This document shows, piece by piece, positions 4,980 through 7,306 of a stretch of 33,695 bases of DNA. Source of the stretch: Candidatus Rokuibacteriota bacterium (GTDB lineage Bacteria > Methylomirabilota > Methylomirabilia > Rokubacteriales > CSP1-6); NCBI GenBank assembly GCA_016866775.1, contig VGLJ01000053.1, positions 1-33,695 of the forward strand, written 5' to 3'. Below the pieces are notes generated by a model. That model was not told where the DNA came from, did no database searches, and saw only the letters and a list, made by a program, of their open reading frames with translations. A program made the translations under genes and the position numbers. Position 1 is the stretch's first letter; every line of letters starts with the position of its first letter.

Positions 4980-5786
4980 ATGTTCGCGGGCGTGCGCGGG
5001 GCGTGGGCGCGCTTCTTCGCGGCCGACGGGTTCTTCGTGGCCGCCGGCCTCGCCTTCTTCTTTCTCGTCACGATGATCCCGCTCGTGCTGCTGAGCGTGG
5101 CGATCGTCGGCTTCGTGCTGAGCTCGGAGCAGGCGGGGCGGGAGATCGTGTCCCAGCTCACGCGCAACTTCCCCGTCTATCGCGACGAGATCGGGCGTGC
5201 GATCTACCGCATCGTGCAGACGCGCACGACCTCCGGCGTCGTGGGGACTGTCATCCTCGTCGTCTTCTCGACGCCGCTCTTCAGCGCCTCACGCCTCGTG
5301 CTCCACCGGCTCATGGGCGTGCGCGTGGGGCGCGGGTTCCTCCGCGGCATGGCCGTCGACATCGGGATGGTCTTTCTCCTCGGCGTCCTGCTCTTCGCGC
5401 TGACCGCGATCACGTGGGCGTTCTACTGGTTCCAGGTCTTCGTGCTCGCGCCGGGCGGCGTGCCGCGCGGCTGGCTCGCGGGCGCGACGCTCGGCTTCAG
5501 CCTGCTGCTCTCGATGCTGATGTTCTATCTCGGCTACCGCTACGTGCCGGTGCGCCACATGCGTCCCGGCCCCGCGCTCGCCGGCGCGATCGTCGCCGCG
5601 CTCCTGTGGGAGGTCGCCAAGCAGCTCTTCCGGCTCTACATCCGGCACTTCGGCGTCTACGACCAGATCTACGGCACGCTCGGCGTGCTCGTCGCGTTCG
5701 TCATGTTCGTCTACTACTCGGCGATCGTGTTCGTGGTCGGGGGCGCGTACGCCGCGTCGCTCGACGGCGGGCGTCCCCAGCGCTGA
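4980..5786 (+). CDS. YihY/BrkB-family inner-membrane protein
   Basis: 268 aa with about six transmembrane segments (near 18-47, 85-104, 125-148, 168-187, 198-215 and 233-258). It carries family hallmarks: an N-terminal GLAFFFLVTMIPL helix, RHMRPGPALAGA, and the terminal YIRHFGVYDQIYGTLG block. Function of the YihY/BrkB family is not settled; the name ribonuclease BN was a historical misassignment. The gene begins 15 nt after the SDR gene with no clear Shine-Dalgarno. It is the last gene before the hairpin-element region. Confidence 0.88.
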   Translation: MFAGVRGAWARFFAADGFFVAAGLAFFFLVTMIPLVLLSVAIVGFVLSSEQAGREIVSQLTRNFPVYRDEIGRAIYRIVQTRTTSGVVGTVILVVFSTPLFSASRLVLHRLMGVRVGRGFLRGMAVDIGMVFLLGVLLFALTAITWAFYWFQVFVLAPGGVPRGWLAGATLGFSLLLSMLMFYLGYRYVPVRHMRPGPALAGAIVAALLWEVAKQLFRLYIRHFGVYDQIYGTLGVLVAFVMFVYYSAIVFVVGGAYAASLDGGRPQR

Positions 5787-5800
5787 TCCTCCCACGCTGG

Positions 5801-5980
5801 CGCGTCGGACCGCGAGGGCCAGGCTCGGTTGGGGGTGGGGCCTCTGACCCCCGACCCGCACCGCCCGGTCTGACGCTCGTTATTTCCATCGAACGGCGGC
5901 AGCCCGCGTCGCGTAGCCGTTCCGGGGACGGGTCAACCGGCCCCACCCCCAACCGAGCCCAGCCCTCGCGGTCCGGCGCG
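5801..5980 (-). repeat. Giant hairpin element, copy 1 (180 nt)
   Basis: Left arm 5801-5842 and right arm 5939-5980 are 42-nt inverted repeats with 3 mismatches. Between them lies a 96-nt core, the reverse complement of the core in copy 2: the first ~60 nt match with one substitution, and the remainder diverges. Inside the core GAACGGC and GCCGTTC form a 7-bp hairpin. TGACCC near one end pairs with GGGTCA near the other, continuing the long stem. No U-tract follows and no protein is evident. Read on the minus strand it has the same orientation as copy 2 on the plus strand. Confidence 0.85.
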
Positions 5981-6211
5981 CCGTCGCCTGACCACCAGCG
6001 TGTGAGGACGGCGGCTTCGAGGACTCGCCGGTAAGCGCAGTCGATTGAGCGATCCGGTCATCGATCGATCGAACACCGACGCATCGCGTTCGCGGTTGCG
6101 CGTTCCGTGGTTGCCGGGTGTCGAGGAGATCACGAGCGCGCGCCCCGCCGCTTGATATGGAAGCGACACCCGCGTTGCGGATTCGAGACACCGACACGCC
6201 ACATTGCGGGC
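5981..6211. other. Noncoding spacer between the hairpin elements
   Basis: No convincing gene is present. CGGGTGTCG (about 6116-6124) and CGACACCCG (about 6165-6173) form a 9-bp inverted repeat around about 40 nt. A run of overlapping CGAT units occurs around 6061-6069. Short open frames cross the spacer but run into the hairpin elements and resemble no protein I know. Confidence 0.5.
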
Positions 6212-6404
6212 GCCGAGCGCAGGCGGGCGCGAGGGGCGTGTATGTGCGGGGTGGGGCCGGTTGACCCGTCCCCGGAACGGCTACGCGAAGCGGGCTGCCG
6301 CCGTTCGATGGAAATACCTGACGCCGGACCGGGCCGCCGCGGGGCGGGGGGTCAGAGGCCCCACCCCGCACACACACGCCCCTCGCGCTTCGCCCGCGCT
6401 CGGC
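6212..6404 (+). repeat. Giant hairpin element, copy 2 (193 nt)
   Basis: Arms 6212-6258 and 6357-6404 are about 47-nt imperfect inverted repeats. The core 6259-6356 is nearly identical to copy 1 over its first 60 nt, including the internal hairpin GAACGGC (6275-6281) / GCCGTTC (6300-6306) and the following GATGGAAATA. The inner stem GGGGTGGGGCC and a CGCGAGGG block are shared with copy 1, but about 12 nt between them differ completely. In both copies they still pair with the opposite arm. It ends 44 nt before the SDR pseudogene start. Confidence 0.85.
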
Positions 6405-6447
6405 ACGCGCGAGGTCACGTGATAGTGTGTCGCGGCCGGTACGGGGG

Positions 6448-7306
6448 ATGACGATGCTTCTGAAAGACAAGGTCGCCGTCGTGACGGGCGCGGCGCGCGG
6501 GATCGGGCGCGAGATCGCCCTGCTGCTCGCGCGGCACGGCGCGCGCGTGGTCGTCAACGACTACGGTGGGAGCGAGGCGGGGGCGGGGACCGCGTCGGCG
6601 CCGGCGGATGAGGTCGTCGGCGAGATCAAAGCGGCGGGCGGGCAGGCCGTCGCGAACTACGACTCGGTCGCGTCGATGGCGGGCGGCAAGAGCATCGTCG
6701 ACACGGCGGTGCGGGCGTTCGGGCGCATCGACATCGTGGTGAACAACGCCGGCATCCTGCGCGACCGGATGATCTTCAACATGTCCGAGGAGGAGTGGGA
6801 CGCGGTCATCAACACCCACCTCAAGGGCTCGTTCGCCGTCACCCGCGCCGCCGCTCCGCTCATGCGCGAGCAGAAGTGGGGACGCTTCATCAACATGACC
6901 TCCACCTCGGGGCTGGTCGGTGACAACTCTCGACATGGCCCGCTACAACGTCACCGCGAACTGCATCTCCCCGTTCGCCTGGACCCGGATGATCGGGACC
7001 ATCCCCACCCAGACCGAGGCCCAGAAGTCCCGGGTCGAGAAGATCAAGAAGATGTCGCCGGCGCATATCGCGCCCCTGGCGGCGTTCCTCTGCTCGGACG
7101 ACGCCCGGGACGTGACCGGGCAGGTCTTCGGCGTTCGGGGTAAGGAAATCATGCTGTTCGGCCACCACCGGCCCGTCATGCGGATCCACCACGCGGAGGG
7201 CTGGACGCTGGAGCGGCTCGCCGACATCTTCCCGGGGACCCTGCACCAACACCTCGTGCCCCTGGAGACCTCCGGCCAGTACTTCAACTACGATCCCCTG
7301 GCCTGA
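6448..7306 (+). pseudogene. SDR dehydrogenase pseudogene (active-site deletion with frameshift)
   Basis: The first frame (6448 or 6454 to about 6924) encodes a good SDR N-terminus: VTGAARGIG cofactor loop, VVNDYGG, NNAGILRDR, and NMTSTSG holding the catalytic Ser. The sequence then jumps frame. From about 6925 another frame reads TTLDMARYNVTANCISPFAW and continues to a normal end at 7306. The missing piece is about 20 codons that should carry YxxxK. The N-terminal style (VNDYGG, NNAGILRDR) resembles hydroxyacyl-CoA dehydrogenases of the multifunctional-enzyme type. GGGGG before the start suits ATG 6454. A real deletion is more likely than a single-base error, though assembly error cannot be excluded. 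Confidence 0.82.

Follow-up and report, generated by a model that had tools for sequence, protein, structure and literature searches.

Giant hairpins with a conserved core and copy-specific arms at gene 3' ends in one family of Rokubacteria

The window, that is, the whole analysed stretch of 33,695 nucleotides from a Candidatus Rokuibacteriota genome, contains two giant hairpins, c53a (about 5799-5982) and c53b (about 6211-6405), between a gene for a BrkB/YihY-type membrane protein and the start of a gene for a short-chain dehydrogenase (SDR). The initial annotation had placed the hairpins at 5801-5980 and 6212-6404, essentially the same coordinates, and its core lengths of 96-98 nt agree with the 96 nt (c53a) and 98 nt (c53b) that were measured. 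The near-identity described for the first 60 or so core nucleotides was also recovered: a single base separates the two cores within their first ~58 nt, and they are 88% identical over their whole length. Paired arms are present within the limits that had been proposed, but the pairing does not end there, and decayed extensions with 70-75% complementarity span 5781-6000 and 6169-6447. On the gene-proximal side of c53a the decayed pairing reaches 5781 and thus includes the stop codon of the BrkB/YihY-type gene, and on the 5' side of c53b the flank homology extends past the arm. The folding energies were -154.9 kcal/mol for c53a and -149.3 kcal/mol for c53b (z = -10.8 and -9.5), and 0 of 200 shuffled sequences folded as well. 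Covariance model R1 matched c53a at 5827-5954 on the minus strand (134.8 bits) and c53b at 6243-6372 on the plus strand (133.4 bits). In the SDR gene behind c53b, a frame change was observed near position 6920 (region 6900-7306), which points to a pseudogene or an assembly error.

Table 1. Features around the two hairpins in the window
Feature	Position	Strand	Remarks
BrkB/YihY-type membrane protein gene	4980..5786	+	Pfam PF03631 and ORF; 3' end faces c53a, host gene of c53a
c53a gene-proximal arm	5799..5842	-	starts 12 nt past the stop codon of the BrkB/YihY-type gene
c53a core, 96 nt	5843..5938	-	plus strand carries CTCTGACC / TATTTCCATC / GGGTCAACC
c53a gene-distal arm	5939..5982	-	decayed pairing on to ~6000
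c53b 5' arm, G-rich	6211..6258	+	perfect stretch 6227-6258; decayed pairing from 6169
c53b core, 98 nt	6259..6356	+	GGTTGACCCGTCCCC...GATGGAAATA...CCGGACCGGG...GGGGTCAGA
c53b 3' arm, C-rich	6357..6405	+	decayed pairing out to 6447
SDR gene start	6451..6921	+	Pfam PF00106; directly downstream of c53b

The first family copies were found by a DNA search of the source genome (G000). A first covariance model was then built from nine source-genome copies and a second from 23 copies; because the core folds differ from copy to copy, the models were restricted to the arms and the inner helix. DNA and covariance model searches, which had been proposed for counting copies, revealed that the core does recur. 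With the first model, 10 copies were found in the source genome, together with related elements in other genera of its family. The second model was applied to 95 genomes of the class; 20 had elements, each of them a member of the window's family, and the 38 genomes outside that family had none. Fuller counts were 30 copies in G030, 15 each in G002 and G012, nine in G009 and eight in G031; these numbers are lower bounds, as orthologues with diverged cores (e.g. L209 and L235) escaped the model and were recovered by synteny only. In a pattern scan of 84,980 species, true hairpins occurred only in records named Candidatus Rokubacteria or Rokuibacteriota. The pattern matches in four other genomes and one viral contig were without arms, and an occurrence in viruses or other phyla was rejected on these grounds. 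All genomes compared were metagenome-assembled genomes (MAGs), and the carriers, which live in soil and groundwater, belong to a single Rokubacteria family.

In 819 kb of the source genome only 15 hairpins of comparable strength exist. Ten of these contain the core under study, one of them truncated by a contig end; the other five comprise three with a second type of core, one whose arms enclose a classical bidirectional terminator, and one weak, imperfect repeat that differs in composition. For 66 of 85 cores the nearest relative was found in the same genome (13.6 expected). The cores thus cluster by genome and have therefore been copied within genomes, which bears out the suggestion of a mobile or amplified non-coding family. 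Two or three elements may also follow one another in tandem with the same orientation (L179 and L184 in G030, L200 and L234 in G012, and L212 in G026), and some of the cores in these arrays are 98% identical. The ends of contigs often lie no more than a few hundred bases away from hairpins (L022:1-69; C226, C8 and C45 of G002; C15 of G012; C122 of G031), and the copy numbers are therefore probably underestimated. The initial annotation had not recognised a named family, and the Rfam scan likewise yielded no match in the window at the gathering score and none at the elements at E<=5; in the relatives, it returned three weak miRNA matches only, far under the cut-off. A description of the family was not found in open-access papers, and the hairpin family is in this sense undescribed.

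In plus orientation, the elements consist of a G-rich 5' arm, CGG, the helix strand TGACC, CGTTCC, a GGAA motif, CGTGG, the helix strand GGTCA, GAG and a C-rich 3' arm. The conserved parts of the core are the asymmetric internal loop (CGG / GAG), the helix TGACC/GGTCA, and the motifs CGTTCC, GGAA and CGTGG. The inner helix covaries, and the versions TGACC/GGTCA, TGGCC/GGCCA, TCACC/GGTGA and CGACC/GGTCG were all observed. Past this helix, no consistent internal RNA fold of the core was found, as the folds vary among copies, and the 7-bp hairpin that had been noticed within the cores of the window is not conserved in other copies. The core of about 95 nt is conserved, whereas the arms vary between 20 and 55 bp (median 33 bp, 95% paired). 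Of the arm cells, 97% and 94.7% were paired, and the covariation was 0.64-0.69, compared with 0.14-0.16 in shuffles; G-U cells were rare among the compensated arm pairs. The arm sequences are mostly unrelated between copies, even when the cores are 88-96% identical, and at some sites this holds also for orthologues in sister species; recent copies may have the innermost 11-22 bp or the entire arm in common. The G content of the 5' arm was 57%, compared with 35% in ordinary 3' flanks. With a G content so far above that of ordinary 3' flanks, the arms were not copied at random from just any 3' end.

Position and orientation of the elements are fixed relative to the neighbouring stop codon. Stop codons were placed with a simple codon-usage gene caller, and such automatic calls may misplace some starts and stops; with this method, a stop codon was found within 60 nt on the GGTCAGAG side for 62 of 85 elements (median 20 nt), on the other side for 15, and on both sides for 10. 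When only elements with a stop codon on one side were considered, the GGTCAGAG side was favoured by 52 to 5 (p=6e-11). In the window, c53a follows this rule with its distance of 12 nt to the BrkB-type gene, and c53b is an exception, because it precedes the start of the SDR gene. The opposite orientation of the two hairpins is real, but it is not the signature of a composite repeat; opposed pairs (e.g. C86 and C72) typically lie between convergent genes, and each element adjoins the 3' end of its own gene. One copy, L125:6183-6385 in the source genome, lies in frame within the linker of a LigD-type protein, between the ligase and the PrimPol (polymerase) domains; in a single comparison, this linker was 58 residues longer than that of a distant LigD. 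At L213, L230, L079 and other loci of the dctM site, another intergenic repeat (TCGGAGGGGGCCTCGACGGCCCCCTCCGA...GCCGGCGAAGCCGGCGCTCGA-like) occurs at the same gene-end sites, and at L213 it is flanked by direct repeats of about 25 nt that duplicate the gene end.

The origin of the arms can be read from several copies, in which the gene-distal arm repeats the 3' end of the host gene in inverted form. At L045 the 41-bp perfect arm reaches into the neighbouring gene and covers its stop codon and 12 coding nucleotides, and therefore the gene-side arm is native and the other arm is the inverted copy. At L050 and L150 the far arm is likewise an inverted copy that extends over the stop codon. At the orthologous loci L196 (G012) and L163 (G031), about 25 coding nucleotides recur as a decayed inverted copy, and behind this copy lies a core fragment, i.e. 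a partial second core. For 78 elements, the inverted similarity of the flanks past the arms was above that of shuffled pairs (p=3e-10).

Hairpins persist at orthologous sites while their arm sequences change completely. The L198 site has a hairpin in G012, G031, G005 and G026, each with different arms; the L199 site has one in G012 and G031 and is empty in G026; and the L203 site is occupied in G031, G012 (two tandem copies) and G026. The identity of orthologous arms was 0.52-0.76, compared with 0.68 for unrelated arms, while the flanking DNA is 80-95% identical. Between G012 and G031, the arms at the L198 and L199 sites differ by multibase block changes in both arms; the closest relatives compared are about 93% identical. 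In G005, the core at the dctM site lies in the opposite orientation to that in G026 and G031, and in G012 half of the core is deleted; this site provides the one case of inversion.

The explanation towards which we lean, with modest confidence, is that the hairpins represent a dispersed gene-3'-end element, that its arms are built and re-homogenised by fold-back template switching, and that it probably forms an mRNA 3'-end structure or a transcription-blocking structure. The core, a stable hairpin, would stall DNA synthesis during replication, the nascent strand would then use its own gene-proximal flank as the template for an inverted copy, and subsequent template-switch events would re-homogenise the arms or flip the core. 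From the end products at the loci, we infer that fold-back template switching during replication both generates the arms and keeps them complementary. In published work, polymerase template switching between inverted repeats has two signatures, the homogenisation of arms and the inversion of the spacer (PMC8604942). The process has been shown to give rise to stems and to preserve them (PMC8794818), and in yeast such events are promoted by transcription and depend on it (PMC3820800). That giant arms of this kind in the source genome also enclose a classical bidirectional terminator (L107) and a second core type speaks for the same explanation.

Because the orientation to the host gene is fixed, the distance to the stop codon is short, and the elements persist across genera, the element probably acts at the transcript 3' end, where it would be a transcription barrier or a 3'-end protecting hairpin. 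No T-run was found next to the hairpins (per 12 nt, 1.4 T on one side and 2.1 T on the other), and because no T-run follows, they are not ordinary intrinsic terminators. TATAAT-like promoters were not found near the elements. Read on the strand that is antisense to the host gene, the mismatches comprised 58 G-U and 28 A-C (p=0.0016), and a count per element gave 30 versus 12 (p=0.008). This bias is suggestive of a functional RNA on the antisense strand, or of a barrier to antisense transcription, but it could have a mutational cause. A further-reaching idea, possible although doubtful, is that the core is self-reinforcing: downstream of any gene, replication would fold back at the core and form long perfect arms out of the gene's 3' end. 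The cell would use the hairpin as a strand-specific barrier, possibly to keep antisense transcription out of the gene, and would retain it for long periods while its arms are continually rewritten.

Several other explanations were weighed. The hairpins could be an ordinary structured RNA, i.e. a 3'-UTR element that is shaped by point compensatory mutations under selection, without template switching. The strong covariation, the covarying inner helix TGACC/GGTCA, the orientation rule, and the excess of G-U over A-C on one strand would all fit such an RNA. However, orthologous arms are no more alike than unrelated ones although their flanks are 93-95% identical, which is too fast for stepwise compensation, compensated pairs are rarely G-U, and the flanks hold inverted copies of coding sequence as well as a partial core; we therefore regard a purely selected RNA as unlikely. 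Amplification within genomes, the orientation fixed to transcription, and recent copies that have only the inner part of the arm in common would be compatible with a retro-mobile RNA, for which a target-primed reverse transcriptase would copy the core RNA into gene 3' ends and fold back to make the arms. Several carriers do have reverse transcriptases, but no RVT_1 match was found in the carriers G009, G026 and G005, four genomes with RVT_1 matches are without a found element, and arms still change at old sites, so that insertion alone is insufficient. Reverse transcriptase presence does not track the elements among genomes, it was set aside as the obvious mobiliser, and a retro-mobile origin seems quite improbable. 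Similarly poor are the prospects of a core that entered long palindromes or terminators already in place, by insertion into their loops. G030 and G074 have short terminator hairpins at the orthologous galT/gdh site, and the giant arms of L107 enclose a classical terminator; against this, the 819 kb of G000 contain no pool of core-free long hairpins, arms take in coding sequence of the neighbouring gene, and the G026 equivalent of the L204 site of G031 consists of directly overlapping stop codons, without a palindrome of that size. We consider loop insertion very improbable.

Movement by a DDE transposase, as a MITE or DNA transposon bounded by terminal inverted repeats, is suggested by G079, in which three hairpin copies (L148, L160 and L205) lie within a MITE-like unit with the terminal repeat TGTCCTGAGTCgGAAGTT and a CTAG target duplication. 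Terminal repeats or target duplications were found nowhere else, the 85 copies have no conserved terminus in common, and the arms differ between copies. The G079 unit looks like a hairpin that was captured by a separate MITE, and a transposon of this type is a highly improbable source of the family. The initial annotation had also considered a transposase-dependent element like REP/RAYT units, which are likewise short intergenic hairpins near gene 3' ends. This reading was rejected on the search for the Y1 transposase (PF01797), which gave no match in five carriers including the source genome (G000, G030, G012, G026 and G005); in addition, 180 nt with a constant centre and a variable base are the reverse of REP, and the REP/RAYT explanation is almost certainly wrong. 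Fold-back chimeras in MAG assembly might be suspected because hairpins often lie at contig ends. However, the same core, position and orientation recur in at least three differently named Rokubacteria records and in 20 genomes, and decayed orthologous copies exist, which makes an artefact extremely improbable. In the preferred explanation, a dispersed element with template-switched arms, the core would reach new genes without a Y1 transposase and, so far, without terminal inverted repeats.

A second family of giant hairpins was observed in the source genome (L024:6736-6876, L026:7027-7136 and L117:11964-12063). It has its own conserved tip, TCCkGTCCTCGCAG...CTGCGGATGTC, and near-perfect, G-rich, copy-specific arms of 36-41 bp; the members at L024 and L026 sit after gene ends. 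At L107:4695-4824, which lies between convergent genes, a classical bidirectional terminator (AAAAAGGCGAGCC...GGCTCGCCTTTT) is enclosed by giant arms of 35 bp. At the end of L202 in G031, a stretch of 103 nt is near-identical in more than 20 contigs, often at contig ends, and is probably the end of a high-copy insertion sequence.

The dozens of independent loci form a natural series in which long RNA or DNA stems apparently arise and persist through a mutational mechanism and not through stepwise compensation, in agreement with the proposal that stems are created and maintained through template switching (PMC8794818). They also call for caution, as very strong arm covariation alone need not prove selection on RNA pairing. 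The family adds a hitherto undescribed gene-3'-end element for a lineage known here only from metagenome-assembled genomes, and the hairpins suggest one cause of contig breaks in Rokubacteria assemblies.

Among known systems, REP/BIME elements with RAYT are also dispersed non-coding intergenic palindromes, mostly downstream of genes and sometimes in opposed pairs. In contrast, the Rokubacteria element is a hairpin of about 180 nt with a conserved centre, variable arms and a fixed orientation to the host gene. The short conserved REP palindrome (20-40 nt) with its GTAG/GGAG foot is absent, and not the foot of the hairpin but its centre is conserved. The conserved terminal inverted repeats and target duplications of MITEs and insertion sequences were seen only in G079, and the termini are mostly copy-specific. 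In ERIC-type units, the entire sequence is conserved, whereas the Rokubacteria arms are mostly copy-specific. ERIC/IRU and other intergenic repeat units (e.g. RU-1 with 127 bp, PMC2759123) do resemble the element in size range, intergenic location, palindromic structure and MITE-like spread. Intrinsic (bidirectional) terminators have in common with it a GC-rich hairpin just past stop codons, a location between convergent genes and a G-rich 5' arm, but the Rokubacteria hairpins have no T-run, a conserved core of ~95 nt, arms that are several times longer and a strand-specific orientation. The palindromes in Nematomorpha mitochondria (PMC6649704) likewise occur at many loci of a single genome as long, near-perfect inverted repeats; they lie inside protein-coding genes and are not reported to have a common core, whereas the Rokubacteria hairpins lie at gene 3' ends and have a conserved core. 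Template-switch quasipalindromes (PMC8604942, PMC8794818, PMC7202029) exhibit the same perfect arms, arm homogenisation and spacer inversion. The known cases are isolated mutation events or short stems, whereas here a conserved element with arms of 20-55 bp is found at dozens of loci. Three of their hallmarks were observed: adjacent sequence inverted in the other arm (L045, L050, L150, L196 and L163), spacer inversion (one case, at the dctM site), and block changes in both arms (L198 and L199).
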